Shown piece by piece: positions 75 to 41,270 of a DNA stretch of 64,000 bases (the first letter of the stretch is position 1; every line of letters begins with the position of its first letter). Location: the NCBI GenBank assembly GCA_003134765.1, contig PLCM01000018.1, forward strand, positions 99,465 to 163,464, written 5' to 3'. This DNA comes from Spartobacteria bacterium (GTDB taxonomy: Bacteria; Verrucomicrobiota; Verrucomicrobiia; Chthoniobacterales; UBA10450). Both the position numbers and the translations under genes were made by a program. A model generated the notes under the pieces. The model did not search any database. It was not told the origin of the DNA and saw nothing but the letters and a program-made list of their open reading frames with translations.

Positions 75-3000
75 GTGGGTTCAACGACCGCCAAAAAACC
101 TTCCCTGACTGCACCGCCCGATCGCGGTTGCGTGGAAATTCGCGGGGCGCGCCAGAATAATCTCAAGGGGATCGATCTCGATCTCCCGCTCGGAAAACTA
201 TCCGTCATTACGGGCCCGAGCGGCAGCGGCAAATCGAGCCTGGCTTTCGACACGATCTACGCCGAGGGCCAGCGGCGCTACGTTGAAACCTTCAGCCCGT
301 ACATGCGGCAATTCCTCGACCGCATGGACAAACCGCGCGTGGACGAAATTCGCGGCATCCCGCCGGCGATTGCGATCGAGCAGGCAAATCCGGTGAAAAG
401 TTCGCGTTCTACCGTCGGCACGATGACGGAAATTAACGATTACCTGAAGCTCCTCATGCCGCGGATCGCCCGCGCCTTTTGCCCAAGCTGCGGCCGCGAG
501 ATTCGCCCCGAGACCGCGCAATCGATCGCGGACCAGATCATCGGCCAATTCAGTCATCCCGAGCGAACTGAAGCGAAGCGGAATGCAGTCGAGGGACCCC
601 GTGGCAAAAAGCGACAGGTAGCAACACGGGATTCCTCCACTGCGCTTCGCTCCGGTCGGAATGACGGCGCAACGGTCTTAATCACTTTCTGGGTGGCCGT
701 TCCGCCGAAAACAGAGCCGCGCGCGTTTTTCGAATTCATCCAGCAGCAAGGTTATTTGCGCGTCTGGATCGACAACGAAATCGTCCGGGTTGATTCGGAC
801 AAAAAAATCAAGCGGCTCGGTGCGCGCGTCCAGGTCATCCAGGATCGGATCACGATCTCAGAAGCGAACCGTCCTCGACTGATCGAAGCGATTGAGACCG
901 CGCTCCGTTTCGGCAAGGACCGGATCAACGTCATCCCGATTTCGGATACCGGAAACCGGAAACCGGAAAGAGGAGATTCCGTTTCCGCAACCCGCAATCC
1001 GACATCCGAAATGCCTTTCTCCACCGGCTGGCACTGCGCGCATTGCGATCTCGATATCCGCCCGCCCACGCCGGGCCTTTTCAGTTTCAACAATCCGCTC
1101 GGCGCCTGCCCGGAATGCCGTGGCTTCGGAAGAACCATCGCGATCGACCTGAACAAGGCGATCCCGGACCATTCTCTCTCCATCGCGGAGGGGGCGGTGC
1201 GCGTTTTCCGCGGGGAAGAGATGGGTAATTTGCAGCGCGATTTAATGCGGGCCTGCGCGCGGGAAGAGATCGATGTCCGAGTCCCGTTCGAGGATTTACC
1301 GAAAGCCGATCAGGAATTCGTCATTAACGGCGAAGCGCGGGATGAGGACACGGATGTGGAGGAGCTGGCGGAAAACGATCGCTGGTACGGCGTGCGCGGG
1401 TTTTTCAAATGGCTCGAGAGCAAGACCTACAAAATGCATGTCCGGGTGTTGCTCAGCCGGTATCGCGCTTACACTACGTGCCCATCCTGCAACGGCGGGC
1501 GCTTTCAGCCGGCGACGCTGAATTACCGGATCGTCTCACCCGCTTCTGTAGCGGCGGTCTATGACCGCCGAAACGGTGGACCGGCCAGCGCTGGAATCGG
1601 CGGTCATAGACCGCCGCTACAGGAGACCGCACGGACCCTGCCGGAAGTGGCGCTGCTTTCCATCAGCGACGCGCGCAGCCTCTTCACTGAGCTGGTTTTG
1701 GCTCCGGGCGATTCGACGGCCGAGATGTTGCGGAACGAAGTGGGGGCGCGCCTGCGTTATCTTTGCGAAGTCGGCCTTGGTTATCTCACCCTCGATCGGT
1801 CCACCCGCACCCTCAGCGGCGGCGAGGTCCAGCGCGTGAATCTCACGACGTGTCTCGGCGCGTCGCTCGTGAACACTCTCTTCGTCATGGACGAGCCGAG
1901 CGTCGGACTGCACCCGCGCGACGTGGGACGTCTCGTGCGCGTGATGCACGATCTGCGGGACAAAGGGAACACCCTTTTGGTCGTCGAGCATGAGGAAGCG
2001 ATCATTCGGTCATCCGACCACGTCATCGACATTGGCCCCGGCCGCGGGGAGTACGGCGGCGAGCTTGTTTTCAGCGGCGCGTTGGAAGATTTTGTAGGGC
2101 AGGCGCATCGCCTGCCGAATTCGCGGGCGGCAAGCGGCGCGCTTGCCCTACAAAAAGCGGCGTCTCTGACAGCTGACTACTTCACCGGTCGCAAATCGAT
2201 TCCGGTTCCGAAATCGCGGCGGAAATCCACGGGTTCGATTCGTATCGCCGGCGCCCGCGAGCACAATCTCAAGAATCTCGACGTCGAGATTCCGCTCGGC
2301 GTTTTTACCTGCGTTACCGGAGTGTCCGGGTCCGGGAAGTCCACCCTGATTCACGAAGTCCTTTACCGGCATCTCCTCCAGGCGAAGGGGCAATCGAGCG
2401 AGCAGGAAGCCGGCGCGTGCAAATCAGTCACGGGCGCCCATCGCATCGGCGAAGTGGTGATGGTGGACCAGTCTCAGCTCGCCCGTACGCCACGGTCGAC
2501 GCCGATTCTCTACCTCGGGCTTTACGATCGCGTCCGGGAATTGTTCGCCGCGCAATCAGAAGCAATGGCGCAGGGTCTCACCGCCAGCTCCTTCTCGTTC
2601 AACTCCGGCAGCGGCCGTTGCGAGCGCTGTTGCGGAACCGGCTTCGAAAAGATCGAGATGCAATTTCTGAGCGACCTCTACGTGCGTTGCGCCGAGTGCG
2701 AAGGCCGCCGCTTCCAGCCCCACGTCCTGCGGGTAAAAGTTTACGGCAAATCGATCCACGACATCCTGGAGATGACCGTCACCGAAGCGATCCAGTTCTT
2801 CGCCCAGATCGGAGAATCCGAAAAAATCGGCAACAAGCTCGACGTCCTCGATGAAGTCGGTCTCGGATATCTGCGTCTCGGCCAGCCGCTCAACACTTTA
2901 TCCGGCGGCGAATCCCAGCGGCTAAAACTCGTCCGGCATCTCTCCGGCGAAAACAGCGAGAGTGGGAACGGATCCTCACGCGGGAATCTTTTCATCTTCG

Positions 3001-6000
3001 ACGAACCGACGACTGGATTGCATTTCGATGACGTCGCGATCCTGATGCGGCTCTTTCAGCGGCTCGTTGCCGGCGGCAATACCCTGGTCGTGATCGAGCA
3101 CAATCTCGAGGTCATCAAATGCGCCGACTGGATCATCGATCTCGGACCGGAAGCCGGCGATGAAGGTGGACGCCTCGTCGCGGCCGGAACCCCGGAAGCC
3201 CTCGCGAAGGAAGAGGCGTCGCATACCGGAAGATATTTAAGAAACGTCATCCCGAGCGCAGCGCAGCGAAGTCGAGGGATCCCGTGGCGAGAGCGTAAAG
3301 CTTACAACTCGGGATCCCTCGACTTCGCTCTGGATGACGAAAATGAGTTGGCGCACGCAGCGGAAGAGCCTCCAACCTATCGCGTGAGTGGAAGTGGTTA
3401 CGGCAACAACGCCATCCGCATCCACGGAGCGCGAGAACACAATCTCAAGAACATCTCGCTCGATATTCCGCGTGATCAGATGGTGGTCATCACCGGCCTG
3501 AGCGGCTCGGGGAAATCGACGGTCGCGTTCGATATTCTTTTCGCGGAAGGCCAGCGTCGTTTTCTCGACAGCATGTCGCCCTATGCGCGCCAGTTCGTGG
3601 AGCAGCTGGAGAAGCCGGACGTCGATCTGGTCGAAGGCGTCCCGCCCAGTGTAGCGATCGAGCAGCGGGTCACGCGCGGCGGCGGCAAATCAACCGTCGC
3701 CACTGTCACGGAAGTCTATCACTTTCTTCGGCTCCTCTTCGCCAAAACCGGGACCCAGTTTTGCCCCGATTGCGATCTGCCCGTCGAAAAGCAGAGCGTC
3801 GCCGCGATCGTCCGCCAGCTCGAGACCGCGGTGAAACGGGGCCCGCTCAAGGTACTTGCGCCGCTGGTGAAAGCGCGGAAGGGATTTCATACCGACGTGG
3901 CGCGTTGGGCCGAGCGCCAGGGGTTCGATACGCTGTTCGTCGATGGCCAGCTCCTGCCGATCGCGCAATTCCGGAAACTCGAGCGGTTCAAAGAACATAC
4001 GATCGACGTTGTCGTCGGCGCGATCGACGCGAAGCGAATCCTGAAAGCGCGCAATCTCGTTCAGCGCGCCCTCGATATCGGTCGCGGCACCGCGCACCTC
4101 CTCGATTCGAAGCATCGTCTCACCGTCATGAGCACGGAGATGAGTTGCCCCGGCTGCGGCCGCGCCTTCGAAGAACTCGATCCGCGACTCTTCTCCTTCA
4201 ACTCCCCGCACGGCGCTTGCCAAGAGTGCGGCGGTTTCGGTGAGATTTGGAATCGTGCCAAGCAAACGGGAACGGAGGACACGGGCGATTCGGTCCTGGA
4301 AAACGAACTCGCGGCGGAGCGGGAATCCGAATGGATTGATGAAGAGGAAGCAGTGCCGTGCCCGGCGTGCCATGGATCGCGTCTGAATCCGGTGGCGCGG
4401 CATGTCCGTCTGCAAAATCAGACAATCGATAATTTTACGGCGCTGTCCGCGGGCGAAGCGTTGCAGTTGATCGGCAAACTTCGGTTCCGCGGCAATCAAA
4501 AGACCGTGGCCGATGATCTGGTGCCGGAGATTTCGCAACGGCTTCGCTTCATGGAAAATGTTGGCCTCAGTTATCTGGCCCTGGGCCGTTCGGCGAAGAC
4601 CTTGAGCGGTGGGGAATCGCAGCGGATTCGCCTGGCGGCGCAGTTGGGTTCGAATCTGCGGGGCGTCCTTTACGTTCTTGACGAACCGACCATTGGCCTG
4701 CACCCGCGCGACAACGTCCGTCTGCTCGAGACGCTGACCGCGTTGCGCGAGAAAGGAAATTCGCTCGTCATCGTCGAGCACGACGAAGAAACGATGCGCC
4801 GGGCCGATTACATCATCGATCTCGGGCCGGGGGCGGGAATGCACGGCGGCGAAGTCGTCGCGCAGGGAACGCTGAGCGAGATCGAGAAAAATAGGAGCTC
4901 CGAGACGGGGCGATGCCTGAAGAATCCGCTCTCTCATCCCACCCGGGCCGAGCGGCGTTCGTTGGAGGAGGTCGAGCAATGGATCGAGATTCGCGGGGCG
5001 CGCGTCCACAATTTGAAGGACGTCGACGTTCGCTTTCCGGTCGGGCGTCTTTCGGTCATCACCGGAATTTCCGGATCAGGAAAATCCACTTTGATGCGGT
5101 CCGTCCTGCTGCCGGCGGTGAAGGAGACCTTGAAAAACAAGCGGAGCGCGCAACGGGAAATCGGGTCGACCATCACCGGCGCGGAAGCCTTCGAAACGGT
5201 TTACGAAGTGGACCAGTCGCCGATCGGAAAGACGTCGCGCTCGACGCCGGCGACCTACATCAAGGTCTTCGATGAGATCCGGAAATTGTACGGGCAACTG
5301 CCGGTTTCACGCGTGCGGGGATATTCGCCGAGCCGCTTTTCGTTTAATACCGAAGGCGGGCGTTGCGAGACCTGCGCCGGCCAGGGTGCGATCAAGCTGG
5401 AGATGAGTTTTCTGCCGAGCAGTTATGTGCCCTGCGAGGATTGCGGCGGGCGGCGTTACAACGCGCAGACACTTGAGGTCCTCTACAACGAAAAAAGCAT
5501 TGGCGACGTCATGGAGATGACGATCGAGCAGGCGGCGGCGTTCTTCGCCACCAATCAAAAAATTGCGCGCCCGCTTTCGCTCCTGGTCGATACCGGGCTC
5601 GGATACCTGAAGCTCGGTCAGCCAAGTCCGACCCTGAGTGGCGGCGAGGCCCAAAGATTAAAACTGGCGACGCAGCTTACGCGCGGAATCGGCCGCGCCC
5701 AGAACGAGCGGATCCGAAAAATGCGGAAGCCGAAATCCACGCTTTATCTTTTGGAAGAACCGACGATCGGGCTGCACATGGCCGACGTGGAACTATTGCT
5801 CAAGGTGCTGCATCGGCTGGTGGATGAAGGCAACACCGTGATCGTGATTGAGCACAACGTCAGCATCATGGGCGAGGCCGATTACATCGTCGATATGGGA
5901 CCTGAAGCCGGGGCCGAGGGCGGCGAAGTCGTCGCGACCGGCACGCCGGAGGAAATCGCGACGAGCCGCGTGAGCCGCACCGCGCCGTTTTTGCGCGAAG

Positions 6001-6050
6001 TGTTAAAGACGAAGCCGCGCAAGGAAAAGCCGTCATCCCGAGCCGCGTAG
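75..6050 (+). CDS. uvrA: Double-length excinuclease ABC subunit A (tandem UvrA, four ABC modules)
   Basis: DNA-damage recognition ATPase of nucleotide excision repair, which loads UvrB on lesions. The 1991-residue product is two complete UvrA units in one chain; a single UvrA is about 940 residues. Four Walker A motifs are visible (GPSGSGKSS at 47-55, GVSGSGKST, GLSGSGKST, GISGSGKST), four LSGGE signatures (LSGGEVQR, LSGGESQR twice, LSGGEAQR), and Cys4 zinc modules (CPSC/CAHC, CERC/CAEC, CPDC/CPGC, CETC/CEDC). The last Walker B reads LLEEP rather than the usual LDEP. Five palindromic repeats are translated in frame, all in the first unit or the linker (about residues 160-197, 289-313, 491-516, 673-694, 1058-1088). 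Removing these ~140 residues leaves about 1850, close to two normal UvrA lengths. The C-terminal residues SSRAA come from the edge of another repeat. The start is GTG; the family core begins near residue 20, so a slightly later start cannot be excluded. Confidence 0.95.
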   Translation: MGSTTAKKPSLTAPPDRGCVEIRGARQNNLKGIDLDLPLGKLSVITGPSGSGKSSLAFDTIYAEGQRRYVETFSPYMRQFLDRMDKPRVDEIRGIPPAIAIEQANPVKSSRSTVGTMTEINDYLKLLMPRIARAFCPSCGREIRPETAQSIADQIIGQFSHPERTEAKRNAVEGPRGKKRQVATRDSSTALRSGRNDGATVLITFWVAVPPKTEPRAFFEFIQQQGYLRVWIDNEIVRVDSDKKIKRLGARVQVIQDRITISEANRPRLIEAIETALRFGKDRINVIPISDTGNRKPERGDSVSATRNPTSEMPFSTGWHCAHCDLDIRPPTPGLFSFNNPLGACPECRGFGRTIAIDLNKAIPDHSLSIAEGAVRVFRGEEMGNLQRDLMRACAREEIDVRVPFEDLPKADQEFVINGEARDEDTDVEELAENDRWYGVRGFFKWLESKTYKMHVRVLLSRYRAYTTCPSCNGGRFQPATLNYRIVSPASVAAVYDRRNGGPASAGIGGHRPPLQETARTLPEVALLSISDARSLFTELVLAPGDSTAEMLRNEVGARLRYLCEVGLGYLTLDRSTRTLSGGEVQRVNLTTCLGASLVNTLFVMDEPSVGLHPRDVGRLVRVMHDLRDKGNTLLVVEHEEAIIRSSDHVIDIGPGRGEYGGELVFSGALEDFVGQAHRLPNSRAASGALALQKAASLTADYFTGRKSIPVPKSRRKSTGSIRIAGAREHNLKNLDVEIPLGVFTCVTGVSGSGKSTLIHEVLYRHLLQAKGQSSEQEAGACKSVTGAHRIGEVVMVDQSQLARTPRSTPILYLGLYDRVRELFAAQSEAMAQGLTASSFSFNSGSGRCERCCGTGFEKIEMQFLSDLYVRCAECEGRRFQPHVLRVKVYGKSIHDILEMTVTEAIQFFAQIGESEKIGNKLDVLDEVGLGYLRLGQPLNTLSGGESQRLKLVRHLSGENSESGNGSSRGNLFIFDEPTTGLHFDDVAILMRLFQRLVAGGNTLVVIEHNLEVIKCADWIIDLGPEAGDEGGRLVAAGTPEALAKEEASHTGRYLRNVIPSAAQRSRGIPWRERKAYNSGSLDFALDDENELAHAAEEPPTYRVSGSGYGNNAIRIHGAREHNLKNISLDIPRDQMVVITGLSGSGKSTVAFDILFAEGQRRFLDSMSPYARQFVEQLEKPDVDLVEGVPPSVAIEQRVTRGGGKSTVATVTEVYHFLRLLFAKTGTQFCPDCDLPVEKQSVAAIVRQLETAVKRGPLKVLAPLVKARKGFHTDVARWAERQGFDTLFVDGQLLPIAQFRKLERFKEHTIDVVVGAIDAKRILKARNLVQRALDIGRGTAHLLDSKHRLTVMSTEMSCPGCGRAFEELDPRLFSFNSPHGACQECGGFGEIWNRAKQTGTEDTGDSVLENELAAERESEWIDEEEAVPCPACHGSRLNPVARHVRLQNQTIDNFTALSAGEALQLIGKLRFRGNQKTVADDLVPEISQRLRFMENVGLSYLALGRSAKTLSGGESQRIRLAAQLGSNLRGVLYVLDEPTIGLHPRDNVRLLETLTALREKGNSLVIVEHDEETMRRADYIIDLGPGAGMHGGEVVAQGTLSEIEKNRSSETGRCLKNPLSHPTRAERRSLEEVEQWIEIRGARVHNLKDVDVRFPVGRLSVITGISGSGKSTLMRSVLLPAVKETLKNKRSAQREIGSTITGAEAFETVYEVDQSPIGKTSRSTPATYIKVFDEIRKLYGQLPVSRVRGYSPSRFSFNTEGGRCETCAGQGAIKLEMSFLPSSYVPCEDCGGRRYNAQTLEVLYNEKSIGDVMEMTIEQAAAFFATNQKIARPLSLLVDTGLGYLKLGQPSPTLSGGEAQRLKLATQLTRGIGRAQNERIRKMRKPKSTLYLLEEPTIGLHMADVELLLKVLHRLVDEGNTVIVIEHNVSIMGEADYIVDMGPEAGAEGGEVVATGTPEEIATSRVSRTAPFLREVLKTKPRKEKPSSRAA
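553..665. repeat. Type A palindromic repeat inserted in frame in uvrA (copy 1)
   Basis: It begins GTCATCCCGAGCGAA and ends CGGAATGAC, with internal complementary stretches (GAGGGACCCCGTGG and a degenerate CACGGGATTCC). It matches the intergenic type A copies at 6059, 8179, 13104, 13908, 41321 and 61705. It keeps the reading frame and encodes about 38 residues rich in R, S, E and K that have no counterpart in normal UvrA, inside the region between the first ABC half and its zinc module. Confidence 0.85.
939..1012. repeat. Palindromic insert in frame in uvrA (ATTTCGGAT-type)
   Basis: Terminal inverted repeats ATTTCGGAT (939-947) and ATCCGAAAT (1004-1012) enclose GGAAACC-rich sequence. The stretch encodes about 25 low-complexity residues just before the zinc module WHCAHC, where other UvrA proteins have no insert. 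This family has only one copy in the window. Confidence 0.65.
1547..1621. repeat. Type C palindromic repeat in frame in uvrA (24-bp perfect inverted arms)
   Basis: The arms at 1547-1570 and 1598-1621 are perfect reverse complements over 24 bp. They start TGTAGCGGCGGTC and end GACCGCCGCTACA. Translation gives about 25 extra residues (VAAVYDRRNGG...) inserted between the strand LNYRI and the helix LPEVALLSI of the first UvrA unit. Outer TGTAG/CTACA ends are shared with the elements at 7199, 11951 and 39800. Confidence 0.85.
2091..2156. repeat. Palindromic repeat in frame in uvrA (TTTGTAGGGCAGGCG type)
   Basis: The ends TTTGTAGGGCAGGCG and CGCTTGCCCTACAAA are near-perfect inverted repeats. The stretch encodes about 22 residues (VGQAHRLPNSRAASGALALQ is the core) inserted after the GELVFSGALEDF loop of the first UvrA unit, a loop that normally continues directly into the SLTADYF-like segment. 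Confidence 0.8.
3246..3338. repeat. Type A palindromic repeat in frame in the linker between the two UvrA units
   Basis: It starts GTCATCCCGAGCGCAGCG and ends CTGGATGAC, with the inner complementary arms GTCGAGGGATCCCG and CGGGATCCCTCGAC. It encodes about 31 residues (around 1058-1088) and lies exactly between the first and second UvrA copies, where an unstructured insert should be tolerated. Confidence 0.85.
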
Positions 6051-6058
6051 ACGGATTT

Positions 6059-6156
6059 GTCATTCCGAGCGAAGCGCAGCGGAGTCGAGATCCCGTGGAA
6101 TATCGATAGACCTTCAACGGGGTCCTTCGACTCCGCTTCGCTCCGCTCAGGATGAC
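6059..6156. repeat. Type A palindromic repeat between uvrA and lgt
   Basis: Starts GTCATTCCGAGCGAAGCG, ends CGCTCAGGATGAC, with ATCCCGTGG / CAACGGGGTCC inner arms. A half-site of type B (GTCATCCCGAGCCGCG, 6032-6047) directly precedes it and provides the last residues of UvrA. The ATGAC at its right end creates a false in-frame start upstream of lgt. Confidence 0.85.
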
Positions 6157-6232
6157 AAACTGGTTTGAGCCGACTAACTGTTCGCCGTTTGTATTGCCGC
6201 GTGCCCAAACATCGCTGAATATCGCTCCCTCA

Positions 6233-39182: not shown

Positions 39183-41270
39183 TCATTGCCTTCTGATCTG
39201 CCAATCCTCGACGAGGTTCGTCGGAATCTCCTTCAGGAACCGGGACGGTCGCTGAAAGACGTCACCGAACCCGCCGCTCAAACGCATGTGCGGGAAGGTG
39301 AGGTAGAGCTCGTCTCGGGCGCGGGTGATCGCGACGTAGAACAGGCGACGTTCTTCTTCAATCGCGTCGCGGGTTTCCAGGGACCGCGTGCTCGGAAACA
39401 TCCCGTCGGTGAGCCAGATCACAAACACCGTGTGATACTCGAGCCCCTTGGCCTGGTGGACCGATGAGAGATTCACCGCCTCCGTGTCCGTGCTTTGGTC
39501 CAAGGCCGGCTCCGTATCGATGTTGCTGATGAGCGCAAGCTGGGAAAGGAATTCGGGCACGTCCTTGAACTGGCGCGCGAACGCCGCGAGCTGGTTCAGA
39601 TCTTCCCGTCGCAGCTCATAGTTCGTGAAGTTCGCCTTCGCATAATCGTCGTAGATCGCTTCCACGATCGACGTGATCATTTCCGACGGCGGATTAGCCT
39701 GCCCGCCCGGCGCGATTTCATCGAGCGTATGGGCAAGCTGCTCCCATGATTTTTTCGACTTCGCACCCACGGGAATGGCGCGCAAGAGCTCACCGAAGTT
39801 GTAGCCGGGATCGGTGATCCCGGCCGGGTTTTTCGGGTTTTCGGCGGCGTCGGTTGCTCCGTCGTTTTGGCCGGGGTCACCGACCCCGGCTACAGCAGAG
39901 CTGTTGCCGAGCGAAGCTTCCCACGCGCGCCAATGATTGTCCGCGCTCTTGTTCCCGATGCCGGGCAGCAATTTCACCATTCGCTTGAACGCAACCTCAT
40001 CGCGCGGATTCGCGACGAAGCGAACGAACGACGTCACGTCTTTCACGTGCGCTTGTTCGAAGAACCGGACGCCGCTCGTGATCACGTAGGGAATGCCGCG
40101 TCGCGAAAGCTCGAGTTGTAATTCGATCGCGTGATAATGCGCGCGGTAGAGGATCGCGATTTCGTCCAGGGCGATGCCTTCGTCGCGAAGCTCCAGAATG
40201 CGCTGGGCCACGAACCGCGCCTGTTCGCTGCCGTCGTTCAATCCCACCACCGCCGGACGCATCGCGTTGCTTGGCCGGGTTGCGGCGAGTTCTTTCCGGA
40301 ACTGTTTCACGTTTGCCGTGATGGCGGCGTTCGCCACCCGCAAAATCTCCGGCACGCTCCGATAGTTCAGCTCGATCTTGAAGACCTGCGCATCCGGGTA
40401 GCGCTCGGGGAACGCCAGGATGTTTTTGAAGTTCGCGCCGCGCCACGAATAGATCGACTGCGCGTCATCGCCGACCACCATGACGTTGCGGTGCTCCGAG
40501 GCGAGCGTGTCGATGAAGTCAGCCTGGATCTTGTTCGTGTCCTGGTATTCGTCGACGAGGATGAACTGGAATTGGCGCCGGTAAAAATCAGCGATGTGCT
40601 CGTGCTCCTTCAGCATCCGGAGCGTCTTTTCGAGGAGATCGTCGAAGTCCATCGAGTTCGTGTTCTTCTTTTTCTTCTCATAGCGCGCGTGGACGTCGGT
40701 GATCTGCTCGAGCAGCGGCAGGAAATAGGGAAACTTTTCCGCGAGCAGCGCATCGATTGGCGTTTCGGTGTTAATGACGAAACTGAAGATCTCAGCCAGG
40801 ACGTCGCCTTTCGGAAAACGGATTTCCTTCGGGTTGATCCCGGCCGCGGCCACCACAGTATCGATCAAGTCCTTCTGGTCCTCGCGGTCCATGATCGTGA
40901 ACCCGCTCGAATAACCGAGTGCGCTGCCGTGCCGGCGCAACATCCGATTCCCGATGGAGTGGAACGTTCCGCCCCATAATCCGCTCGCATCCACCGGCAA
41001 GAGGTTTGCCACCCGCTCGAGCATCTGGCGCGCGGCTTTGTTCGTGAAGGTGAGCAACAGGATGTTGCGAGGGTCGATCCCGTTCTCGAGCAAATACGCC
41101 ACCCGATAGGTCAGGGTCCGCGTTTTGCCGCTGCCGGCGCCGGCGATGACGAGCAACGGTCCGGGCGAAGCCGTTACCGCCGCGAACTGCTGCTCATTCA
41201 GCTCCGCCGCGTAATCGATGTTGATCGACGACGCTCGGGGCGCGGGTTGAAGCGTGTACTCGCGGGACAT
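39183..41270 (-). CDS. UvrD/PcrA-type superfamily 1 DNA helicase
   Basis: ATP-driven 3'-5' helicase for repair and replication. 695 residues with SF1A motifs: LLVIAGAGSGKTRTLTYR (Walker A, about 40-57), LLTFTNKAA, FILVDEYQDTNKIQ (motif II), VVGDDAQSIYSWRGA (motif III), NYRSVPEIL, SSVHQAKGLEYHTVFVIWL (motif V) and RRLFYVAITRARDELYL (motif VI). It is close in length to PcrA/Rep. About 32 residues (around 459-491, AVAGVGDPGQNDG...) are encoded by a palindromic repeat inserted in frame in domain 2. UvrD, PcrA and Rep cannot be separated by reading alone. It has no co-directional partner nearby. Confidence 0.93.
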   Translation of the reverse strand: MSREYTLQPAPRASSINIDYAAELNEQQFAAVTASPGPLLVIAGAGSGKTRTLTYRVAYLLENGIDPRNILLLTFTNKAARQMLERVANLLPVDASGLWGGTFHSIGNRMLRRHGSALGYSSGFTIMDREDQKDLIDTVVAAAGINPKEIRFPKGDVLAEIFSFVINTETPIDALLAEKFPYFLPLLEQITDVHARYEKKKKNTNSMDFDDLLEKTLRMLKEHEHIADFYRRQFQFILVDEYQDTNKIQADFIDTLASEHRNVMVVGDDAQSIYSWRGANFKNILAFPERYPDAQVFKIELNYRSVPEILRVANAAITANVKQFRKELAATRPSNAMRPAVVGLNDGSEQARFVAQRILELRDEGIALDEIAILYRAHYHAIELQLELSRRGIPYVITSGVRFFEQAHVKDVTSFVRFVANPRDEVAFKRMVKLLPGIGNKSADNHWRAWEASLGNSSAVAGVGDPGQNDGATDAAENPKNPAGITDPGYNFGELLRAIPVGAKSKKSWEQLAHTLDEIAPGGQANPPSEMITSIVEAIYDDYAKANFTNYELRREDLNQLAAFARQFKDVPEFLSQLALISNIDTEPALDQSTDTEAVNLSSVHQAKGLEYHTVFVIWLTDGMFPSTRSLETRDAIEEERRLFYVAITRARDELYLTFPHMRLSGGFGDVFQRPSRFLKEIPTNLVEDWQIRRQ
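39800..39894. repeat. Palindromic repeat inserted in frame in the SF1 helicase gene
   Basis: The outer arms TGTAGCCGGGATCGGTGATC (39800-39819) and its near complement ending CACCGACCCCGGCTACA (39878-39894) are inverted repeats with a few differences. The TGTAG/CTACA ends match the uvrA insert at 1547. The frame is kept through the whole element. Confidence 0.88.

Follow-up and report, generated by a model that had tools for sequence, protein, structure and literature searches.

Passages of Di Nocera et al. 2013 (PMC3733652), the sole relevant report found in the literature on palindromic repeats with uvrA, describe repetitive extragenic palindromes (REPs) lying in frame in each of the two uvrA genes that the verrucomicrobium Opitutus terrae has, and in Thioalkalivibrio uvrA, other repair genes and tRNA synthetases. 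The same passages locate palindromic elements of R. conorii in frame within genes, discuss tolerance and mutator hypotheses for intragenic REPs, and include some Rickettsia palindromic elements (RPEs) in a CGTC class of REPs (8–9 bp stem, 4–5 nt loop, CCA-like tail). Here we analyse a double-length uvrA gene in a 64,000-nt stretch of DNA (the window) from a soil Verrucomicrobiota draft genome (G000; 4.05 Mb, 41 contigs), compared with same-genus genomes G001–G007 and with gene sets from the bacterial family. The phylum assignment follows the closest named record, a Verrucomicrobia MAG that matches at 91%. The gene carries five palindromic inserts, which are very probably palindromes of the REP or REPIN (REP doublets forming hairpins) type, insert 2 being an inverted 7-nt array, that landed independently and survived in tolerant places. 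The features concerned, in window coordinates, are as follows.

75..6050, forward strand: uvrA, double-length, 1991 aa, four ATPase modules (open reading frame, UvrA models, motifs)
553..665, no strand: insert 1, imperfect palindrome of the GTCATyCCGAG...TCGAGG family
939..1012, no strand: insert 2, inverted array of degenerate 7-nt units (CGGAAAC-like)
1546..1622, no strand: insert 3, GTAG-tagged REP pair (CTGTAGCGGCGGTC... inverted)
2090..2155, no strand: insert 4, GTAG-tagged REP pair (TTGTAGGGCAGGCG... inverted)
3246..3338, no strand: insert 5, palindrome of the insert 1 family, in the linker between the two UvrA units
6056..6159, no strand: intergenic copy of the insert 1/5 family directly past the uvrA stop codon, untranslated in uvrA

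The reading frame is uninterrupted across its 1991 aa, its product passes the cut-offs of both the PRK00349 and TIGR00630 UvrA models, and four Walker A, four LSGGE and four Walker B motifs can be counted, in agreement with the full-length frame and four ATPase modules of the initial annotation. It shares two UvrA units per protein with the Chlamydia-type double-length UvrA (PRK00635), but scores 1144 bits against that model's cut-off of 3054. All five inserts of the initial annotation are recovered as inverted-repeat arms, in insert 3 (1543–1571/1597–1625, 29 nt, 97%), insert 4 (2090–2117/2128–2155, 28 nt, 86%) and insert 5 (3265–3284/3310–3329, 20 nt, 100%), and as weaker palindromes in insert 1 (567–588/635–656, 22 nt, 77%) and insert 2 (939–969/982–1012, 31 nt, 71%), both too imperfect for a hairpin scan at score ≥14. 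The proposed count of four sequence families, several of them unrelated, is likewise right: the insert 1/5 family, the 7-nt array and two distinct GTAG REP pairs.

The frame stays open through every insert, without in-frame stops, as had been claimed. In inserts 1 and 3 just one of the three forward frames is open, and it is the one in use. Inserts 1 and 2 as drawn (113 and 74 nt) are not divisible by three; the net gain relative to empty relatives is in frame (56 versus 19 aa at site 1, 40 versus 19 aa at site 3). Insert 1, between the UvrA residue positions QF and TVLITF, adds 37 aa relative to most same-genus rows, and insert 5, of the same family, is translated in a different frame. Alignment to solved UvrA chains puts the inserts between well-aligned blocks, at places where both relatives and the solved chains have short variable stretches, which fits the earlier suggestion of tolerated loops.

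Comparison within the genus, where several inserts are missing from relatives' UvrA, reveals filled and empty versions of the same places. Site 1 is filled in G000 and G007, in the latter also by a GTCATyCCGAG...TCGAGG family member, and empty in G001–G006; site 3 is filled in G000, G005 and G006, empty in G001, G002, G003 and G007, and occupied in G004 by a shorter, different stretch. In the site 2 loop, G003, G004, G006 and G007 likewise have 7-nt arrays, built of other units, and site 4 holds other palindrome families in G001, G003, G006 and G007. In G006 the uvrA gene (L056, ~3523–3783) is split beside its site-4 palindrome into open reading frames of 677 and 1222 aa; this gene, its frame broken, and partial contigs were left out of the family uvrA set. 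Across the 24 family uvrA genes, source included, inserts (at least 8 aa above the median length) are confined to 12 zones of 1875 core positions, a count that is too low for sites 4 and 5, at which the majority of rows have added length and the median itself is long. One zone lies in the second UvrA unit and is filled in 5 of the 24 genes, so the earlier statement that this unit is free of inserts holds for the source genome and fails for its relatives. A single place likewise takes 9 of 11 uvrC inserts, and one place 9 of 10 mutS inserts.

Inserts 1, 3 and 5 have related sequences elsewhere. Insert 1 has 56 matches in its own genome (both strands counted), and an 800 kb sample of it (G000:C27:1-400000 plus G000:C1:1-400000) contains 46 places related to insert 1 and 59 related to insert 5. 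Insert 3 has 29 matches (both strands) in its own genome and 6–84 in the seven other same-genus genomes searched. GTAG stands at the hairpin foot of inserts 3 and 4 only, being absent from 1, 2 and 5; both consist of two REPs inverted around a spacer, and inserts 1 and 5 form inverted pairs too. A CGTC tag precedes the AT-starting stem in insert 5, insert 1 having AGTC, and C precedes GTCATyCyGAG at 49 of 151 sites in the 800 kb. The TCGAGG motif of this family has 19 matches in uvrA and uvrC, two of which are normal UvrA sequence. Every one of the three codon phases is represented, so it is not a specific peptide that is being maintained.

Insert 2 was detected as a 7-nt array (TRF score 47). 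Inverted 7-nt arrays occur at many places in G000, G003 and G007, with units that differ by locus (AACGTCC, AATGACG, AAGGATG, AATGCGG, AAATCCG), and TRF detects 43 arrays of period 7 in 400 kb, compared with 11 in Markov sequence. They may resemble the heptanucleotide repeats of cyanobacteria.

Chance palindromes are ruled out: scanning 400 kb of the genome at score ≥14 gave 75 hairpins, and Markov sequence gave none. At score ≥13 the 800 kb hold 145, with 105 intergenic, 19 across gene ends and only 21 wholly in genes; given a coding share of ~86%, palindromes are strongly excluded from genes. They also turn over: among 57 that could be placed in G007 by their flanks, 33 have ≤32 nt there (14 of them none) and 22 have >50 nt. 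Recurrence at the same places together with depletion from genes most likely reflects survivorship; the repeated selection for insertion suggested earlier is not shown by these data.

Insertion in uvrA only is ruled out, since repeat-like in-gene hairpins occupy 15 host genes in the 800 kb, 11 in the first (C27) stretch and 4 in the second (C1); a hairpin in the 1330-aa gene at G000:C27:393785 was not repeat-like and was excluded before this count. Repair-related hosts in the first stretch are the double UvrA, a single UvrA, a UvrD/PcrA-like protein, UvrC, a B-family DNA polymerase and MutS, alongside leucyl-tRNA synthetase, a CtaA-like protein, a sulfotransferase–aminotransferase fusion, an FAD/Fe-S oxidase and one unknown; those in the second are FadJ-like, error-prone DnaE2, isoleucyl-tRNA synthetase and IspG. 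Repair or translesion genes thus make up 7 of 15 hosts, compared with 1 among 30 genes drawn at random with length weighting (p 9e-4); 12 of these 30 controls lack an NCBIfam match at 1e-25, and with unclassified genes removed the counts are 7/14 and 1/18 (p 0.006). The idea arose in the first stretch, which supplies six of the seven, and the second stretch alone, with one repair host in four (DnaE2), weighs against a repair-gene excess. In a G007 stretch all four in-gene hairpins are in uvrA and uvrC; it is syntenic with the first stretch and therefore not independent evidence. Two in-gene hairpins in G003:C25, one in a host annotated as carboxylate-amine ligase, do not look like REPs. A relaxed or decaying host gene is rejected, because the seven hosts compared lie at the 49th–94th conservation percentile (uvrA 72nd, uvrC 94th, among 196 ortholog pairs).

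Family gene sets, scanned at score ≥13, place the excess more precisely. They yield 29 hairpins in 24 uvrA genes (135 kb), 8 in 28 uvrC genes (43 kb) and 3 in 23 mutS genes, against none in gyrA (24 genes), clpB (20) or ppdk (27) and two, short and not REP-like, in secA (26), that is, 2 hairpins in 267 kb for the four controls combined. After the length limit 23/30 mutS, 24/30 gyrA, 26/30 secA, 28/30 uvrC, 20/25 clpB and 27/30 ppdk rows were kept. The controls do vary in length without hairpins, with 11, 2 and 8 inserts of ≥8 aa in secA, clpB and ppdk. Of the 29 uvrA hairpins, a minimum of two, both from G017, resemble chance palindromes, and the Markov control yielded one. The p-values are generous, related genomes not being independent samples. 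The uvrA and uvrC rates are well above both the controls and the genome-wide in-gene rate and that of mutS is not. The excess is thus firm for uvrA and uvrC; for repair genes as a whole it is suggestive.

Three further repair genes deserve mention. Within the window, the helicase host is the following.

39183..41270, reverse strand: UvrD/PcrA-like helicase gene with an in-frame GTAG-tagged palindrome at 39800-39894 (hairpin scan)

The G007 helicase gene is without this insert. A second, single-length UvrA lies ~8 kb upstream of the double uvrA (G000:C27:88735-91680; L068:8735-11680, reverse strand); it too holds an in-frame palindrome, missing from its G007 ortholog, and its presence speaks against the earlier description of the double uvrA as an essential repair gene. 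In several family genomes the matched blocks of UvrB lie ~150–200 nt apart at model position 401–404, coordinates that suggest a variable extra segment there.

We propose that copies landed in uvrA independently and at different times, their families presumably moved by Y1 HUH transposases of the REP-associated tyrosine transposase (RAYT)/TnpA-REP kind. Copies entering genes would mostly be lost; the survivors would be the ones that preserve the frame and lie in surface loops or linkers, and they would be translated as extra segments of 14–40 residues that the protein apparently tolerates. On this proposal uvrA and the excision-repair genes of the bacterial family would retain more palindromes than other long genes, most likely through loop tolerance, target preference or selection being possible causes.

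Several results weigh against this account. Movement enters it by deduction, none having been observed, and the whole analysis is based on draft assemblies, with expression of the inserts deduced from sequence. Insert 4 has no second copy within the 800 kb sampled of its own genome; mutS alone is not above the genome-wide in-gene rate (p 0.26); and none of the seven Y1_Tnp matches in the genome is flanked by the insert 3 or insert 4 family, and no cognate transposase of these two inserts was identified. Most pointed is the conservation of two shared inserts. Insert 3, common to G000 and G006 at the same site, is identical at 75 of 77 nt (300-nt flanks, 86% and 82%) and differs at 1 of 18 fourfold sites against 126/324 (39%) over the compared piece; the site-4 insert of G003 and G007 is identical at 110 of 116 nt and differs at 1 of 24 fourfold sites against 365/946 (39%). 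Such strong conservation is unexpected for neutral debris and unexplained. The best other insert 3 copy among the matches listed in either genome is ~82% identical, so a recent second copy is no easy explanation. When shared palindromes were tested more generally for slow evolution, the result was mixed.

Two of the Y1_Tnp matches do have repeats of other kinds at their flanks: a RAYT-like gene (G000:C34:70216-70479; L043) is bordered on both sides by CTTCTGTAGCCGCT-type GTAG repeats, and another match, flanked by CTGGGGAGCGCAGGCTG repeats, lies in frame within a 900-aa RecG (G000:C41; L044:283-2985). The embedded segment, L044:1378 to 2002, begins CTGGGGAGCGCAGGCTGCCAGCCTGC, ends in an inverted near-copy and retains a PDHAH motif and tyrosine region. 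The G005 RecG, the sole relative compared, is 704 aa long and lacks the segment (85% identity over 693 aligned residues). In the fused protein the transposase domain has a Pfam score of 21, just under the cut-off of 23 bits, and the genome search gave it 24.2; we therefore call it RAYT-like for caution. The site-4 insert of G006 uvrA starts and ends with CTGGGGAGCGCACGCG, its first 12 nt the same as in the recG unit. The recG segment may be an autonomous unit with same-family uvrA palindromes as its miniature relatives. The recG case suggests that a RAYT and its flanking REPs are able to move together and end up inside a protein gene. No RecG case with a RAYT or in-frame insert appeared among the best 8 of 26 literature matches listed.

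The slow silent-site change of the two shared inserts, and the excess of repair genes among hosts over random genes, would both suit a functional role, in which repair is modulated by the peptide or by the hairpin at the DNA or mRNA level, for instance lowered to produce the mutator state on which Di Nocera et al. speculated. We consider this doubtful: the same places hold different families, frames and peptides, many relatives have no insert there, insert 1 is conserved less than its flanks between G000 and G007 (87/113, 77%, versus ~86%), and the host excess comes mainly from the stretch that gave rise to the idea. It is also rather unlikely, though less so, that the elements prefer repair genes as targets (by loop sequence, structure or replication context) independently of tolerance. 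The same loop is re-hit by the same class, site 2 bearing 7-nt arrays in five or more genomes, and nine uvrC genes carry extra length at one place; loop tolerance, however, explains this re-use equally well, and the wide intergenic spread of palindromes speaks against strict targeting.

A broader proposal makes repair genes preferred landing or retention sites of a RAYT–REP system, with some intragenic palindromes kept at the nucleic-acid level, so that repair genes and repeats would be coupled and not merely tolerant. Cited for it are the REP–RAYT–REP unit in frame in recG, the miniature relatives with the same CTGGGGAGCGCA ends in relatives' uvrA, and silent-site change ~10x lower in shared inserts than in the surrounding gene; we regard it as unlikely, if a shade less so than target preference alone. 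That palindromes were misjoined into uvrA during assembly is hardly credible: the genomes are drafts and the G006 gene is broken beside its site-4 insert, but many genomes assembled independently of one another share the same kinds of in-frame insert at matching places, and the source frame is open over its whole length. Independent landing followed by survival in tolerant places is the reading we prefer.

These genes provide a dense natural record of sites in UvrA, UvrC and MutS that tolerate foreign peptides, and with control genes the 2013 remark that REPs favour repair genes becomes a testable statement. If the excess and the odd conservation hold, miniature mobile elements may have a link to DNA repair instead of a random distribution.

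Comparison with known systems sets the five inserts in place. Inverted REP pairs with a spacer, the GTAG tag (inserts 3 and 4) and Y1 transposase genes in the genome recall REPINs and their RAYTs, which the consulted parts of PMC3116915 and PMC8266576 present as mainly extragenic; the inserts here are intragenic and have no assigned cognate RAYT. The likeness to Rickettsia palindromic elements drawn by the initial annotation is borne out, in description, in that both are in-frame palindromes in conserved protein genes (passages of PMC3733652); here, several unrelated families share one gene. Closest are the intragenic GTAG/CGTC REPs in those passages, which have in common in-frame REP pairs in verrucomicrobial uvrA, multiple inserts per gene and the host types UvrABC, UvrD, DNA polymerases, DnaE2 and tRNA synthetases. 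To what they describe, the present case adds a single gene with five inserts from four families, places used repeatedly across 24 genomes, empty sites and controls. Since in-frame REPs in uvrA are already in print, this gene adds an unusually dense example to a known kind; what is new is the recurrence at the same places in many relatives and the controlled excess in excision-repair genes.

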